Positions 17,599 to 24,047 of a stretch of 64,000 nucleotides of DNA are shown one piece after another. The stretch lies in contig NZ_PVSS01000001.1 of the NCBI RefSeq assembly GCF_003025005.1, positions 62,001 through 126,000 on the forward strand, in the 5' to 3' direction. Position numbers and translations under genes: made by a program. This stretch comes from Brumimicrobium mesophilum. GTDB lineage: Bacteria; Bacteroidota; Bacteroidia; Flavobacteriales_D; Crocinitomicaceae. Under the pieces are notes generated by a model. The model was not told where the DNA came from, searched no databases, and was given only the letters and a program-made list of their open reading frames with translations. How positions within the stretch are numbered: the first letter of the stretch is position 1; every line of letters starts with the position of its first letter.

Positions 17599-18204
17599 AT
17601 GGACAGAAAAAAATTTATATTCACCTCAGCATTCACAGTTTTAGGCTTGTCAACATTTGGTTCAATCATCAAGCTACCCAATGGAAAATTCGGAGGAGAC
17701 TGTGAAACTACGAACGATATTCTGGGTCCATTTTATAGACCTGACGCCCCTCTCAGATCAAATTTAACGACCCCTGGACTAAAAGGAACTAGAATAAAGT
17801 TAAAAGGAAAAGTATATAGTTCAGATTGTACAACCACACTCAAAGGAGCTATGGTGGAAATCTGGCATTGTAATACTGAAGGTGAATACGACAACAATTC
17901 AAAAGATTTCAGGCAAAGGGGACGTTTAATTACAAATGCGAAGGGAGAATATTCATTTGACACAATTTTGCCCGGAAAGTATTTGAATGGCGTGCTTTAT
18001 AGACCTGCTCACATTCATTTCCGAGTTACGGAGGGAAACAGTAAAGAACTCATTTCTCAAATTTACTTTAAAGGAGATCCAAATATCGAAAAAGATCCTT
18101 GGGCATCAAAAGATAAAGCTGAATTGAGAATTCTACAAATTATACCAGAAGACACCAATGGAAGTTTGGTTGTTAATTTTGATGTTTATTTGGGGGAAGA
18201 TTAA
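17599..18204 (+). CDS. Exported intradiol ring-cleavage dioxygenase-like protein
   Basis: The fold is that of protocatechuate/catechol intradiol dioxygenases, which use non-haem Fe(III). All four expected ligands appear: Y97 (CNTEGEYDN), Y134, H138 and H140 (LYRPAHIHF). An N-terminal segment with basic residues then a hydrophobic run (DRKKFIFTSAFTVLGLSTFG) looks like an export signal, so it should act outside the cytosol, unlike classical aromatic-degradation enzymes. At 201 residues it is the short single-domain form common in Bacteroidota. There are no beta-ketoadipate genes nearby. The enzymatic fold is secure; the physiological substrate is unknown. Confidence 0.85.
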   Translation: MDRKKFIFTSAFTVLGLSTFGSIIKLPNGKFGGDCETTNDILGPFYRPDAPLRSNLTTPGLKGTRIKLKGKVYSSDCTTTLKGAMVEIWHCNTEGEYDNNSKDFRQRGRLITNAKGEYSFDTILPGKYLNGVLYRPAHIHFRVTEGNSKELISQIYFKGDPNIEKDPWASKDKAELRILQIIPEDTNGSLVVNFDVYLGED

Positions 18205-18298
18205 ATGAGCAATACCAGTCAAAAAGCAAAATTATAATATAAAGTGAAATATGATGAAAACTACTTATGGGATTGATGTCGATGGAGGTTTTATTATG

Positions 18299-18383
18299 TC
18301 GTTCTTTTAGGACTTTAGAACGAATTGTTACAATCCACCTAGGAGTTACCTCCTAGGATTATTCGTATCGTCCTTTTAGGACT
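18299..18383 (-). repeat. REP-like palindromic module 1 (minus orientation)
   Basis: Read on the minus strand the order is AGTCCTAAAAGGACGA (18383-18368), a hairpin CCTAGGAG-GTAA-CTCCTAGG (18357-18338), then AGTCCTAAAAGAACGA (18314-18299). The outer 16-mers are themselves small hairpins. The 69-bp spacing of the 16-mers and the order of parts match module 2 on the opposite strand. Both inner loops are GNRA tetraloops (GTAA here, GAAA in module 2). Confidence 0.85.
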
Positions 18384-18552
18384 AATTTGTAAAAAACACT
18401 CGAAAAATGACCTTAATTTCTTGTGAGATTGACATGGAATGGAATTTTAATATTTCATTCTTCAGCTGACCTACAATTTTATGGAAAAACATTCACTTTG
18501 ATTTAATATATGATAATTATTCCATAGATAATGACTCTTTAGTATAAACACA

Positions 18553-18636
18553 AGTGCCGAAGGTACGATATGCATTAGCCTAGGACGAAAGTCCTAGGCT
18601 AATAGAACAGATCCAAATCAAGTGCCGAAGGTACGA
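18553..18636 (+). repeat. REP-like palindromic module 2 (plus orientation)
   Basis: AGTGCCGAAGGTACGA occurs exactly twice, at 18553-18568 and 18621-18636. Between them is a perfect 12-bp stem TTAGCCTAGGAC / GTCCTAGGCTAA closed by a GAAA loop (18575-18602). With module 1 it forms an inverted pair about 170 bp apart, a BIME-like arrangement immediately upstream of the transposase gene. Confidence 0.9.
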
Positions 18637-18728
18637 CACCATAAGGATTTCATTCTTTTCAACACTTAATTCCCAATCATCACTCCATAAGTGGACGAAA
18701 AGTTGTAATTTAAAGATTAAAAAAAACC

Positions 18729-19103
18729 ATGGGACAATCATTACCAATTCATTTTATACACATTACATTTAGTACAAAAGCTAGAAAAGCAATGATTCAC
18801 CCTCCTTTTGAAAAAGGACTACATGCATATATAACTGGAATTTGTAACAATTTGGAATGCCGAGTTTTAAAGGTTGGTGGCTATACAGACCATATCCATA
18901 TTTTATGTATGCATTCTCCCAAAATAACTTTTATGGCTTTAATGCAGAAAATAAAAGCTAATTCTTCGAAATGGATGAAAACGAGAGATGAGAGTTTAAA
19001 AAACTTTTCTTGGCAGAGAGGATATGGTTCATTTTCAGGAAATCCAACAGAAACAGAAATAGTTATTAAATATATTGACAAAGTTGTTATAAAAACTCAC
19101 TAA
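18729..19103 (+). CDS. REP-associated (RAYT/IS200-like) Y1 transposase, C-terminus shortened
   Basis: This is a single-strand HUH transposase-like protein of the Y1 family. The metal-binding HUH motif is seen in GGYTDHIHILC near residues 56-66. The helix with the catalytic Tyr appears as IVIKYIDK near the end (Y at about 117), after a W-Q-R-G-Y-G-S-F-S segment typical of the family. Usual members continue with an NQ-x-HH segment and about 25 more residues. Here the frame stops eight residues after the Tyr, so the tail is lost or replaced. It is 124 residues against roughly 150 normally. Paired palindromes upstream mark it as the REP-processing type. Activity is doubtful. The polyketide operon starts 18 bp downstream. 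Confidence 0.85.
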   Translation: MGQSLPIHFIHITFSTKARKAMIHPPFEKGLHAYITGICNNLECRVLKVGGYTDHIHILCMHSPKITFMALMQKIKANSSKWMKTRDESLKNFSWQRGYGSFSGNPTETEIVIKYIDKVVIKTH

Positions 19104-19121: not shown

Positions 19122-20249
19122 ATGACTTACGACACAATCATAGTTGGAGGAGGACTTGCCGGACTAACGAGTGCTGTGCACCTTTCTAAGCAAGGCTTAT
19201 CTGTACTATTGATTGAAAAAAATGAATATCCAAAACATAAAGTTTGTGGTGAATATATCTCCAATGAAGTCCTCCCCTATTTGAATGCTCTGGGTTTTAA
19301 CCCTTTCGATTTTGGTGCAAAAAACATTGTGAATTTTTCTTTAAGCACAAACAAAAGTAAATCAGTAAGCGCGAAATTACCGTTGGGAGGATTTGGAATT
19401 AGTCGTTACTGTATCGACTGGGAATTAGCGAAATTAGCACAACAAAATGGTGCTAAAATTTCACATGAAAAAGTGAACGATATTCAATTTGAGAATGACC
19501 TTTTCACCGTTCACACGAATTCGAATTTACAATTCACCTCAGAGCTTGTGATTGGATCTTTTGGGAAACGTTCGAATCTGGATATTAAAATGGAACGTCA
19601 ATTCATTCAGAAAAAAACACCATTCTTAGGAATCAAAGCACATTACAAAGGTGATTTTCCCGAAAATGCAGTTAGATTACATAACTTCAAAGGTGGTTAT
19701 TGTGGTATTTCGAAAGTAGAAACCGACCTGATCAATGTTTGTTACATCGCCGATTACAAGTCATTTAAAAAGCACAAAAACATTGATGATTTTCAGAAGA
19801 AAGTTCTCAGTAAAAACAAATATTTGAAAGAAGTTTTTAACAATTATGAAATGAATTTTGACAATCCCTTAACGATTAGTCAAGTTTCATTTTCTTCCAA
19901 ACAACCTGTAGAAAACCATATTATAATGTGTGGAGACAGTGCAGGAATGATTCATCCTTTGGCCGGAAATGGAATGAGTATGGCTATCCGAGCAGCTCAA
20001 ATGGCTTCTTTAAAAATATTGAAATTTAAATCGGGAGAAATAAAATCAAGAACAGAATTAGAAATGGAATTTACTGCCCTTTGGAATAAAGAATTTAGCA
20101 ATCGGTTAAAAAATGGACATATCATCGCAAGGTTATTCCGACTGGGTTTAATTTCTGAAATAATTATGGTATTTTTAAAAGCCTTTCCATCCATTTTGCC
20201 TTTAGTTATTAAAAGAACACACGGAAAACCAATGAAAGCTGAACTCTAA
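19122..20249 (+). CDS. FAD-dependent oxidoreductase of the geranylgeranyl-reductase type
   Basis: The N-terminal dinucleotide fold is clear (IIVGGGLAGLTSA, residues 6-18, then a glutamate-ended strand LLIEKN). A family motif KVCGEYIS follows at about residues 41-48. The second FAD site IMCGDSAGMIHPLAGNGM lies near 268-285. Relatives reduce isoprenoid double bonds or hydroxylate and halogenate aromatic rings, so the reaction cannot be read from sequence alone. It is the first gene of a run of seven whose other members make and tailor a polyketide; the next gene starts two bases after its stop. A role in oxidising or reducing the type III synthase product is the likeliest inference. Confidence 0.85.
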   Translation: MTYDTIIVGGGLAGLTSAVHLSKQGLSVLLIEKNEYPKHKVCGEYISNEVLPYLNALGFNPFDFGAKNIVNFSLSTNKSKSVSAKLPLGGFGISRYCIDWELAKLAQQNGAKISHEKVNDIQFENDLFTVHTNSNLQFTSELVIGSFGKRSNLDIKMERQFIQKKTPFLGIKAHYKGDFPENAVRLHNFKGGYCGISKVETDLINVCYIADYKSFKKHKNIDDFQKKVLSKNKYLKEVFNNYEMNFDNPLTISQVSFSSKQPVENHIIMCGDSAGMIHPLAGNGMSMAIRAAQMASLKILKFKSGEIKSRTELEMEFTALWNKEFSNRLKNGHIIARLFRLGLISEIIMVFLKAFPSILPLVIKRTHGKPMKAEL

Positions 20250-20250
20250 A

Positions 20251-20955
20251 ATGGTTAATACAAAACACAGAAGTAAAGAAGTTGAGATCATGGATGATCT
20301 TGATATGAGCGGCGATTTACTAATCAGTTCCCTCGATCAATTGGCCAAAGTCAACAAATGGCTAGGTGGAAATAAAATTACCATTGATGGCCTGAAGAAA
20401 ATTTTAGTTAATCATCCTAAGGAAAAAACAATTAGTATAGTCGACCTTGGTTGTGGAAATGGAGATATGTTGAGAAAAGTTGCCGAATTTGGTAGAAAAA
20501 ACGGCAACAAATTTCAGTTATTAGGAATTGATGCCAATCAAGCAACTATTGATTACGCCAATAAACTTTCAGCTGATTTTCCAGAATTAACTTTTAGCAA
20601 AGAAGATGTTTTAGGAGATCAATTTGAAGCACATAAATATGACATTGCAATGTGTACATTATTTCTTCATCATTTTGAAGATGAGGTAGCATTGAAACTC
20701 GTTCAAACTTTGGTGAAAAATTCCACAATTGGAGTATTGATTAATGATTTGCACCGACATAAAATGGCGTACATTCTTTTCAATATAATAACATCTGGAA
20801 TTAAAAATAAAATGACACAAGAAGATGGCTTAACTTCCATTTTAAAAGCATTTAAACGTGAAGATCTAGAAAGATTTTCGAAAGAAATAAATTATAAAAG
20901 CACTATAACCTGGCGTTGGGCATTTCGTTTCCAATGGATAATTAAGAAATCATGA
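20251..20955 (+). CDS. Class I SAM-dependent methyltransferase of the polyketide cluster
   Basis: The SAM-binding motif I IVDLGCGNGD lies at residues 63-72, followed by an acidic end of strand 2 in LLGIDANQ about 20 residues on. The 234-residue protein has no membrane segment at its start. Its ATG comes one base after the oxidoreductase stop, and its own stop overlaps the synthase start by four bases (ATGA), so translation is coupled. It probably methylates the polyketide product on carbon or oxygen. Which position cannot be told. Confidence 0.87.
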   Translation: MVNTKHRSKEVEIMDDLDMSGDLLISSLDQLAKVNKWLGGNKITIDGLKKILVNHPKEKTISIVDLGCGNGDMLRKVAEFGRKNGNKFQLLGIDANQATIDYANKLSADFPELTFSKEDVLGDQFEAHKYDIAMCTLFLHHFEDEVALKLVQTLVKNSTIGVLINDLHRHKMAYILFNIITSGIKNKMTQEDGLTSILKAFKREDLERFSKEINYKSTITWRWAFRFQWIIKKS

Positions 20956-22004
20956 GCGTAAAAATAACATCTGTAGCTACACAATTGCCTTCATATTCAA
21001 GGACAACTGAAGAAATTATCCCATTCCTCAAAATTTGGTTGGATGGTCATGAAGAACGATACCAGCGAAAAGTGATTAAACTTTTTGAAAATGCTGGCGT
21101 AGATAGAAGGTATTCAATTATGGAACCTGAGGAGGTTTTTTTGAAAACTTCATTCGAAGAAAAAAATGACATTTACAAGCGCGAAACTATAAAATTGGCA
21201 GAAGGTGCTTTGACAAAAGCACTAGATAAAGCCAACTTAAAACCTAGCGATATTGATTATATCATTACCGTGAGTTGTACTGGAATTATGATTCCGTCTG
21301 TTGATGCTTATTTGATTAATAAATTGAATATGAAGCAAGACATCGTCCGACTCCCTGTGACAGAAATGGGTTGTGTAGCTGGAGTTTCTGGAATGATTTA
21401 CGCCAATAATTTCTTGAAGGCAAATCCCAATAAACGCGCTGCCGTGATTGCCGTAGAATCTCCTACTTCAACTTTTCAAATTGACGATTATTCCATGGTT
21501 AATATTGTAAGTGCTGCAATTTTTGGAGATGGTTGTGCTTGTACCATTCTTTCTTCGTATGAAAACGAAGATGGACCACAAATAATTGATGATGCGATGT
21601 ATCACTTTTATAATGCAGAACACATGATGGGATTTGAATTGAAAAACACAGGACTTCAAATGGTTTTGGACAAAGAAGTTCCTGAGAAAATCGCTGCTCA
21701 TTTCCCTATGATTGTTCATCCATTTTTGGAAAGAAATGGTTTAAAAATCGACGATGTAAATCACTTAATTTTTCATCCGGGAGGAAAGAAAATTGTACAA
21801 ACGATTGAAGAATTATTTGGCGCTTTAGGAAAGAACATTGACAACACAAAAGGCGTTTTAAAAGACTATGGAAATATGTCCAGTGCCACAGTTTTGTATG
21901 TTTTAGAAAGATTCATGGAGCAAAATCCACAAAAAGGAGAGATTGGATTGATGTTGAGTTTCGGACCTGGGTTTACTGCACAAAGATTATTATTAAAATG
22001 GTAA
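20952..22004 (+). CDS. Type III polyketide synthase (chalcone/stilbene synthase-like)
   Basis: This homodimeric thiolase-fold enzyme extends an acyl starter with malonyl units and cyclises the chain without a carrier domain of its own. The catalytic triad is complete: C141 in TEMGCVAG, H275 in LIFHPGG and N308 in GNMSSAT. The C-terminal GPGFTAQ loop is also present, and the 350 residues fit bacterial members. It lies fourth-base-overlapped after the methyltransferase and 41 bp before the dehydratase. With a private ketosynthase, dehydratase and carrier protein beside it, the starter is probably a carrier-bound, partly reduced or unsaturated acyl chain. Likely products are resorcinols, pyrones or phloroglucinol-type compounds. 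Confidence 0.93.
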   Translation: MSVKITSVATQLPSYSRTTEEIIPFLKIWLDGHEERYQRKVIKLFENAGVDRRYSIMEPEEVFLKTSFEEKNDIYKRETIKLAEGALTKALDKANLKPSDIDYIITVSCTGIMIPSVDAYLINKLNMKQDIVRLPVTEMGCVAGVSGMIYANNFLKANPNKRAAVIAVESPTSTFQIDDYSMVNIVSAAIFGDGCACTILSSYENEDGPQIIDDAMYHFYNAEHMMGFELKNTGLQMVLDKEVPEKIAAHFPMIVHPFLERNGLKIDDVNHLIFHPGGKKIVQTIEELFGALGKNIDNTKGVLKDYGNMSSATVLYVLERFMEQNPQKGEIGLMLSFGPGFTAQRLLLKW

Positions 22005-22045
22005 TCACAATATTAATACGCTAGAAAATAATAAAGTTAATTCAA

Positions 22046-22498
22046 ATGATGAATTTCAAGGAGATCATAGCAAAACTACCTTACGAAAAGCCATTTCTTT
22101 TTGTAGATGAGATAATTGAAATTAATGAAAATGGAATTTCTGGAACTTTCACTTTTGATGCCTCAAGTGATTTTTATAAAGGACATTTTAAAAACAATCC
22201 GGTTACTCCAGGCGTAATTTTAATCGAAACGATGGCTCAAATCGGATTGGTGAGTTTTGGAATTTATTTGATGAATGAGTCAGGAGAAAAAATGGATGAA
22301 ATTCAAATTGCATTAAGCTCTTCTGAGATAGACTTCTTCAAACCCGTTTTTCCAAATGAAAAAGTAATCGTAAAAAGTCAAAAAGAATATTTCCGCTTTA
22401 ATAAATTGAAATGTAAAGTTGAAATGTTTAACTTAAAGGATGAATTGGTTTGTCGTGGTAAAATTGCTGGAATGATTGCAGTAAAAACATCAAGATAA
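22046..22498 (+). CDS. FabZ-like hotdog 3-hydroxyacyl-ACP dehydratase
   Basis: The single hotdog domain carries the FabZ active pair: H47 in KGHFKNNPVTPG and E61 in VILIETMAQ. The first lines (LPYEKPFLFVDEI) are also FabZ-like. At 150 residues it is complete. Two Met codons at the start leave three bases of doubt. It sits between the type III synthase (41 bp) and the ketosynthase (23 bp), which suggests it works on the cluster's own carrier-bound intermediates rather than in general fatty acid synthesis. Confidence 0.9.
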   Translation: MMNFKEIIAKLPYEKPFLFVDEIIEINENGISGTFTFDASSDFYKGHFKNNPVTPGVILIETMAQIGLVSFGIYLMNESGEKMDEIQIALSSSEIDFFKPVFPNEKVIVKSQKEYFRFNKLKCKVEMFNLKDELVCRGKIAGMIAVKTSR

Positions 22499-22521
22499 GG
22501 TAAACATTTCAAAAGAGAATT

Positions 22522-23790
22522 ATGGAAAATAGAGTCGTTATAACTGGTCTAGGTGTAGTTGCTCCAAATGGAATTGGATTAACAGAGTTTACGCACGCCA
22601 TAAAAAATGGAACTTCAGGAGTCAAATTTTTCCCACAATTAAAAGAATTAGAGTTCTCTTGTTGTATTGGTGGAAAACCAGAAGTTTCTGAAGACTTAAA
22701 ACGAGAATATTTAACGGAATTACAATTGCGTGGTTTCAATAGTTCAGGTATTCTGTATGGCTGTATGGCAGGAATGGATGCTTGGAAAGATGCTGGATTA
22801 TCAATTTCGGAATCCACAGATTATGACAGTGGAACAGTTTTCGGAGCAGGAACTTCTGGAATTGAACGTTTCAGAGAAGCCATTTACAAAGTGGACGAAA
22901 AACAAGTGAGGCGTTTAGGAAGTACTGTGGTTGCGCAAACCATGGCTAGTGGAGTAAGCGCTTATTTAGGCGGAATTTTAGGACTAGGAAATCAAGTCAC
23001 CACAAATTCTTCGGCTTGTACCACAGGAACTGAGGCTATTTTAATGGGATTTGAACGCATAAAAGCCGGGAGAGCAAAACGCATGATAGTCGGAGGAACA
23101 AGCGATGAAGGTCCTTATGTCTGGGGAGGTTTTGATGCCATGCGTGTCCTGACTTACAAACACAATGAATCCCCCAAAACAGGATCACGCCCAATGAGTG
23201 CAACAGCTTCAGGATTTGTTCCTGGAAGTGGTGCTGGAGCCTTAATTTTAGAATCTTTGGAAAGTGCACTGGAAAGAAATGCTACAATCTACGCGGAAGT
23301 TTTAGGTGGTGAAGTTAATTCTGGTGGACAGAGAGATGGAGGTTCAATGACTGCTCCCAACTCAGAATCAGTGCAGCGCTGTATCCAAAAAGCGGTTGAA
23401 AATTCTAACATAAAAGCCTCAGAAATAGATGCAATTAACGGACATTTAACGGCAACGATTAAAGACTTCACAGAAATAGAAAATTGGTCTCAAGCTTTAA
23501 AATTAGAAGGTGATGATTTTCCACATATCAATTCATTAAAATCTATGATTGGTCATTGTTTATCTGCCTCTGGCGCAATTGAGAGTGTGGCAAGTGTTTT
23601 ACAAATTCACAATAACTTTATCTTTCCAAATATCAACTGTGAAGATTTAAACGAAGAGATTACATCTCTAATTTCAGCAGAAAAAATACCTCAAAAATTA
23701 ATAGATAAAAAAGTTAACATCGTTGCGAAAGCGAGTTTTGGTTTTGGAGATGTAAACGGATGTATAATATTTAAAAAATTCAAACTATAA
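22522..23790 (+). CDS. Beta-ketoacyl-ACP synthase (FabF/KAS II-like) of the cluster
   Basis: This condensing enzyme has a complete Cys-His-His triad: C166 in NSSACTTG, H308 in INGHLTAT and H345 in KSMIGHCLSASG. The second motif is NGHLTAT rather than the usual NAHGTST, so the active-site loop is divergent from housekeeping FabF, in keeping with a specialised substrate. The product is 422 residues. Its stop codon shares a base with the carrier protein start (TAATG), so the two are translationally coupled and almost certainly partners in building the acyl chain. Confidence 0.92.
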   Translation: MENRVVITGLGVVAPNGIGLTEFTHAIKNGTSGVKFFPQLKELEFSCCIGGKPEVSEDLKREYLTELQLRGFNSSGILYGCMAGMDAWKDAGLSISESTDYDSGTVFGAGTSGIERFREAIYKVDEKQVRRLGSTVVAQTMASGVSAYLGGILGLGNQVTTNSSACTTGTEAILMGFERIKAGRAKRMIVGGTSDEGPYVWGGFDAMRVLTYKHNESPKTGSRPMSATASGFVPGSGAGALILESLESALERNATIYAEVLGGEVNSGGQRDGGSMTAPNSESVQRCIQKAVENSNIKASEIDAINGHLTATIKDFTEIENWSQALKLEGDDFPHINSLKSMIGHCLSASGAIESVASVLQIHNNFIFPNINCEDLNEEITSLISAEKIPQKLIDKKVNIVAKASFGFGDVNGCIIFKKFKL

Positions 23791-24047
23791 TGAGCGATAA
23801 AGACAAAATGATAGAAGAATTAAAAGCCTTAATAAAACCATATATACAAGATGAAGAAGCTTTTAAAAACTTACATGAAAATACAAATTTTATAGAAGAC
23901 TTAAAGATCAATTCAGCAAACCTTGTGGACATAGTTTTAGATATAGAAGACAAATACGACATTGAAATCGACAACGATTCGATGGATAAAATGTTGAGTG
24001 TAAAGGCTGCTTTAGAAATTATCGAACAAAAAGTTTCAAAAAAATAA
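23790..24047 (+). CDS. Dedicated acyl carrier protein
   Basis: The 85-residue acidic helical protein has the carrier fold. The phosphopantetheine Ser appears to be S42, in LKINSANLVDIV, where most carriers have DSL: Asn replaces Asp and Ala replaces Leu. The remaining pattern (NFIEDLKI before, DIEDKYDIEID after) is typical. Start and stop overlap the neighbouring genes by one base each, tying it to the upstream ketosynthase and the downstream phosphopantetheinyl transferase. It probably carries the growing starter chain for the type III synthase. Confidence 0.88.
   Translation: MSDKDKMIEELKALIKPYIQDEEAFKNLHENTNFIEDLKINSANLVDIVLDIEDKYDIEIDNDSMDKMLSVKAALEIIEQKVSKK

Follow-up and report, generated by a model that had tools for sequence, protein, structure and literature searches.

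The analysed window, a 64,000-nucleotide stretch of Brumimicrobium mesophilum DNA, contains an inverted pair of modules of about 86 bp each, located at 18299-18383 and 18553-18636, 5' of a Y1 transposase open reading frame (18729-19103). The modules face each other, and the flanking genes encode an intradiol dioxygenase (17599-18204) and an FAD oxidoreductase (19122-20249). The features of the locus are given below with the analyses on which they are based; R1 is a covariance model described further on.

18238-18276, + strand: residual 3'-terminal fragment of a Y1 transposase gene (ending in KYDENYLWD and a stop codon), directly 5' of module A; BLASTN.
18299-18383, - strand: module A, composed of outer hairpin, 12-nt spacer, central hairpin and outer hairpin; RF01687, R1 and repeat search.
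18338-18357, - strand: central hairpin of module A, with an 8-bp stem and the GNRA loop GTAA on the - strand; sequence, Rfam alignment and DNA fold.
18553-18636, + strand: module B, composed of outer hairpin AGTGCCGAAGGTACGA, 12-nt spacer, central hairpin and an identical outer hairpin; RF01687, R1 and DNA fold.
18574-18603, + strand: central hairpin of module B, with a 13-bp perfect stem and the loop GAAA; inverted repeat search.
18729-19103, + strand: Y1 (HuH) transposase open reading frame of 124 aa, assigned to IS200-type subclass 1.2; PF01797 (81 bits), NF033573, NF047646, alignment and BLASTN.
19076-19083, no strand: junction between the truncated Y1 gene and sequence that also lies 5' of the FAD-oxidoreductase gene of a sister species; alignment to G004.

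The outer 16-mers of module A are TCGTTCTTTTAGGACT (18299-18314) and TCGTCCTTTTAGGACT (18368-18383), spaced 69 bp apart, and its centre reads CCTAGGAG-TTAC-CTCCTAGG (18338-18357), the loop being GTAA on the - strand. In module B the 16-mer AGTGCCGAAGGTACGA occurs twice, at 18553-18568 and 18621-18636, with a spacing of 68 bp. Within each module the outer 16-mers are in direct orientation around the perfect central stem. A preliminary description of this DNA had reported two modules of opposite orientation with outer 16-mers 68-69 bp apart, which direct reading and a repeat search confirmed, as well as perfect central stems with GNRA loops (GAAA, GTAA), which are present in both modules. It had also counted five differing positions between the 16-mers of A and B, with at least one compensatory change. 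The count is correct, but the covariation was understated, because four of the five positions form two compensatory pair changes (G.T to C-G and C-G to T-A); two of the five base pairs of the outer stem are thus changed on both sides. The outer copy at 18299-18314 of module A pairs fully, including a T.G pair, on the + strand only, with an A.C mismatch on the other strand.

Both modules match the Rfam family RF01687, "Acido-Lenti-1 sRNA" (gathering score 37): module B with 55.8 bits on the - strand and module A with 41.6 bits on the + strand (E values 2.5e-11 and 1.8e-7). R1, trained on other organisms only, detects module B with 33.8 bits on the + strand (18551-18600) and module A with 24.0 bits on the - strand (18336-18385), at E values of 2.7e-6 and 7.6e-4 in 300 kb. 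The DNA folding z-scores of the modules are about -5, and their architecture is far beyond chance. A reading of the hairpins as terminators was rejected, as no T-run lies 3' of the central hairpins in the window.

The Y1 protein of the window reaches 67.1 bits against the IS200/IS605 model NF033573, above the cut-off of 55, and 22.8 bits against the RAYT model NF047646, below the cut-off of 80; a profile search against solved structures returned IS200-type TnpA only, including ISDra2 and ISHp608 (E about 2e-13). The open reading frame retains HIH and the tyrosine but is truncated just after the latter and lacks the C-terminal Q--HH region. BLASTN homology to an intact paralogue stops at 19081, and the final codons, past about 19081, are no part of a transposase. 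The paralogue, on contig C45, is 150 aa long, shows 78% identity over the aligned part and has modules alongside. It carries the motif Y---Q--HH, by which Quentin et al. 2018 (PMC6006769) defined subclass 1.2, as do 77 of 80 related loci. Judged from its sequence, the window transposase belongs to subclass 1.2; it is not of the RAYT type, as the preliminary description had it, and the modules possess two kinds of hairpin and no GT[AG]G foot. In the same study subclass 1.2 is listed without REPs and described as "generally without typical terminal IS200 secondary structure features", of low copy number and lacking IS properties. Since the window gene is truncated, any activity would have to come from elsewhere in the genome, and the C45 paralogue is its likely source.

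The segment 18238-18383 matches the 3' end of the C45 paralogue together with the module that lies downstream of it (73% over 147 nt, E 2e-18). By BLASTN, two C45 blocks recur here with their order swapped: the tail of the gene comes first, then modules A and B, then its head, and the locus has the appearance of a single unit taken out of a tandem array. A similar capture of the 3' ends of rayt genes in BIMEs was described by Nunvar et al. 2010 (PMC2817692). From about 19078 the window aligns with the region upstream of the FAD gene in the sister species (G004), where neither a Y1 gene nor a module is present. Judged from their sequences, the genes at 19122-24047 encode FAD reductase-like, methyltransferase, type III PKS-like, FabZ-like, ketosynthase and acyl carrier proteins; they look like a polyketide or aryl-polyene-type cluster with the broken transposase at its upstream edge.

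A scan of genome contigs with the Y1 alignment yielded 80 loci, from Bacteroidota, Verrucomicrobiota, Planctomycetota, Acidobacteriota, Ignavibacteriota, Sumerlaeota, Myxococcota and one pseudomonadote MAG. They were chosen by similarity to the relatives of the window gene, so the sample is weighted toward its clade, and the near/far contrast within loci is independent of that choice. A regular expression built from the window's own 16-mer matched at only 10 of the 80 loci, because other organisms have other stem bases: their flanks show the same plan with sequences such as AAGCCCTGAAAGGGC, GNNATANNNTAG and CGATGGGCAACGCCCATCG. It was replaced by a structure-based scan and by R1, which was built from 25 units of the even-numbered loci and tested on the 40 odd-numbered ones, the window modules lying outside the training set.

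R1 modules were found within 700 bp of the gene in 38 of the 40 held-out loci, at a density of 2.76/kb near the gene versus 0.085/kb further out. Upstream, the nearest module shares the strand of the gene at 30 of 36 loci; downstream, the nearest one has the opposite strand at 29 of 34; the gene is therefore flanked by inward-facing modules. Twenty Y1 loci taken as class 2/RAYT served as controls, and the 80.6 kb surrounding them contained no R1 match; these loci had been picked by weak Pfam scores and longer open reading frames (mostly about 185-230 aa), four being confirmed as class 2 by motif. R1 was likewise without a match at L300-L304, which have the top Pfam Y1_Tnp scores among loci of non-Y---Q--HH type. 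In a quick maximum-likelihood tree, 77 genes including that of the window form a clade (SH-aLRT 97) with modules at 75 of them, and the module label changes 9 times on the tree versus 45.5 times in shuffles. By these sequence comparisons, the modules sit beside this transposase clade in at least seven phyla. For that clade, they contradict the published REP-less description of subclass 1.2; no earlier tie between the subclass and such repeats was found in Quentin 2018 (PMC6006769) or in the open-access literature searched. Many subclass-1.2 genes outside the clade are without R1 modules, and therefore the link belongs to one clade and not to the whole subclass. Another subclass-1.2 gene outside the clade (L071, genome G028) is preceded by four repeats of about 85 bp with the hairpins TCGTCCC-TAAC-GGGACGA and GGATTTC-TTGC-GAAATCC. 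Other clades may thus be accompanied by modules of a related but different kind.

The functional strand was examined in 58 modules selected by Watson-Crick pairs in the first outer and central stems only, the second outer hairpin being located by its likeness to the first, without a pairing rule. On the strand with GAA-type loops, the non-Watson-Crick pairs of the second outer hairpins comprise 23 G.T and one A.C (p 3e-6, to be taken as a guide only, as related copies are not independent). This ratio places the hairpin on the strand opposite to that of Rfam. The DNA fold of module B agrees: all three hairpins form on the + strand and not on the - strand, the two outer ones on the + strand only. 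In 20 Y1 loci, 10 of 10 Rfam matches coincide with R1 modules on the opposite strand. The wobble evidence fixes the strand and not the choice between DNA and RNA; the link to a transposase of single-stranded DNA favours DNA. The hairpins also covary in alignment A3, where the count was not used as proof because the set was chosen for pairing.

On the functional strand the module consists of: (i) an outer hairpin with a 5-bp stem and a GNA-type triloop; (ii) a conserved 3' flank, GNNAYA, within the 12-nt spacer; (iii) a central hairpin of about 8 bp with a 3-4-nt loop; (iv) about 21-26 nt; and (v) a second outer hairpin of the same orientation. In the 58-module set the GNRA loop is one variant only, the outer hairpins mostly having GNA triloops and the central hairpin mostly AAC. 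Weinberg 2010 gives Acido-Lenti-1 as "probably RNA", and a 2026 paper reads the Tannerella copies as possible regulators, in connection with protease genes. The passages on RF01687/Acido-Lenti-1 found in open-access papers contain no link to transposases, and gccctgaaagggc was not found in the open-access literature searched.

The preliminary description had proposed a copy count in this genome and its relatives, and further copies were indeed revealed. In the window genome nine RF01687 matches exceed the gathering score: six lie either in the window or next to the C45 Y1 gene, and the others are isolated. Weaker matches surround the Y1 gene of contig C34. Among 79 related genomes, RF01687 occurs in 17 and the wider model R1 in 20. 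A strong Y1 gene is present in 17 of these 20 genomes versus 17 of the 59 others (Fisher p 1.5e-5; outside the genus p 1.9e-4); the three with modules and no strong Y1 gene (G002, G032, G043) call for gene loss or a diverged gene. The copy number of TnpA is low. Genome searches revealed 64 modules in Flavipsychrobacter stenotrophus; a planctomycete MAG has 126. Modules occur singly or as inverted pairs, and the planctomycete copies are mostly BIME/REPIN-like inverted pairs.

Alignment of 11-20 copies from each of these two genomes showed sharp module ends and flanks that vary between copies. In Flavipsychrobacter similarity is absent 5' of the first outer hairpin and conservation ends about 9 nt past the last one; in the planctomycete it ends beyond a short GGTTTTC, at the same point on both arms of the inverted pair. 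For one genome to contain dozens of sharply bounded modules, up to 126, scattered among unrelated flanks, a copying process must have operated at some time. Comparison with relatives gave no clean empty site at C5:30139, C4:93670, C1:324313 or the window locus, because the intergenic regions vary too much. At C5:30139 relatives have other modules or another palindrome; the C5 and C4 sites differ between species, though not by clean insertion, and the local number of modules varies by species. Some module sites seem common to species of the genus (G000 C4, G002, G004), and part of the copies is therefore old.

Taken together, the modules are probably non-autonomous, single-strand-specific REP/BIME-like elements whose cognate enzyme would be the IS200-type subclass-1.2 Y1 TnpA. 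The preliminary description had proposed a BIME mobilised by the adjacent Y1 transposase. Its architecture stands, with many copies, inverted pairs, sharp ends and a clade-wide association, its RAYT type does not, and mobilisation itself is suggested by analogy. From the biochemistry of IS200/IS605 and RAYT enzymes, the following sequence may be proposed: the functional strand becomes exposed, for example on the lagging-strand template; TnpA would bind the outer hairpins as single-stranded DNA, and its tyrosine would cut next to the conserved GNNAYA flank; the module or inverted pair might then, after excision or copying, insert at another site or be amplified where it lies.

The closest known system is that of REP/BIME/REPIN elements and RAYTs (TnpA_REP, Quentin class 2), in which a Y1 HuH gene is likewise flanked by inverted palindromic elements, with dispersed copies, inverted pairs or arrays, strand-specific hairpins and capture of gene tails between elements (PMC2817692). 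The class 2 layout of inverted palindromes with copies elsewhere is found here as a likeness, whereas two RAYT-defining features fail: the TnpA is of IS200-type subclass 1.2 and the GT[AG]G foot is absent. Moreover, the module combines direct outer repeats with two different kinds of hairpin set a constant 12 nt apart, and a single consensus extends across at least seven phyla. IS200/IS605 elements (TnpA subclass 1.1, e.g. ISHp608 and ISDra2) and their miniature derivatives share a related TnpA and two same-orientation hairpins at the unit ends, as at LE and RE. In contrast to them, the unit here is about 86-95 bp with a conserved central hairpin and the gene lies between inverted, not direct, modules; subclass 1.2 is also described as lacking IS ends (PMC6006769). 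RF01687 has the identical plan of 8-bp stem, 12-nt spacer and 5-bp stem with 3-nt loop, but models the complementary strand with one outer hairpin only and is named an sRNA. The "atypical secondary structures" of TnpA class 3 and subclass 2.6 (Quentin 2018, PMC6006769) are similarly non-GTAG hairpins by Y1 genes, with many copies in some genomes; their descriptions set them apart by the motifs Y----Q or YIH[QN]NP and, for class 3, the foot CnGA.

A small RNA gene to which the transposase neighbourhood is incidental, or which hitch-hikes, seems an improbable reading of RF01687. Both window modules do exceed the Rfam gathering score, the hairpins covary (in a set chosen for pairing) and the 2026 paper takes the Tannerella copies for possible regulators; yet the wobbles and the ten coinciding Rfam matches point to the other strand. 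Also against this reading are the close and oriented link to a single TnpA clade across at least seven phyla and the sharp-ended inverted pairs and tandem arrays. We consider it equally doubtful that TnpA and module form a domesticated pair, with the modules serving mainly as binding sites (in regulation, on mRNA or in chromosome organisation) and little or no present movement. The dispersed, sharp-ended copies with unrelated flanks need past copying, and local module number differs between species, although low TnpA copy number, sites apparently common to species of the genus and the published account of subclass 1.2 as low-copy and without IS properties (PMC6006769) would suit it.

An ordinary class 2 RAYT/REP BIME, as first described, is very unlikely and, as to family, refuted by the protein models, the foot motif and the control loci. 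The inverted palindromes around a Y1 gene and the BIME-like pairs agree with it, but the protein fails the RAYT model and passes that of IS200, its placement is in subclass 1.2, the 5' flank of the outer hairpin is NNA in the window and in R1 instead of GT[AG]G, and the control loci taken as class 2 are free of modules.

It is rather likely that the modules represent a further kind of REP system, distinct from the RAYT/GTAG REPs: a two-hairpin single-stranded DNA module whose plan is conserved in at least seven phyla, moved by an IS200-type subclass-1.2 TnpA and long filed in Rfam as a wrong-strand sRNA. If so, the "REP-less" subclass-1.2 transposases gain a likely substrate, and REP-type repeats reach beyond RAYTs in Bacteroidota, Verrucomicrobiota, Planctomycetota, Acidobacteriota and others. 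An Rfam sRNA family would be re-read as mobile DNA hairpins of the other strand, and Acido-Lenti-1 "ncRNA" annotations, including the regulation of protease genes suggested for Tannerella in the 2026 paper, would need another look. One system would then combine hairpins in direct arrangement, as at the ends of IS200/IS605 elements, with the inverted arrangement of REPs that is seen around the gene in RAYT REPtrons.

Modules or parts of them were also found within other repeats. In Flavipsychrobacter (G080; L260, L261, L262, L263, L270), five modules are contained in near-identical copies of a larger element, which is bounded by the terminal inverted repeats AAGTGTTCGAAAC...GTTTCGAACACTT and flanked by repeats of about 10 bp, e.g. 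GGTCTCTGACC in L262. It is inserted into hairpins, including the central stem of another module (L263), and resembles a conventional MITE with a captured module. The same-genus genome G004 (L098-L127) has about 27 copies of a palindromic element of about 530 bp, about 90% identical, in which two inverted half modules (one outer and one central hairpin each) stand 148 bp apart around CGACCTAATTGCATGCAATTAGGTCG; these were rejected as plain modules and are counted as a palindromic element with half modules. Finally, 3' of another subclass-1.2 Y1 gene (L135, G000 C34:104.6-105.4 kb), weak module matches recur with a 329-bp period and, from their sequence, probably represent a tandem array of diverged modules.
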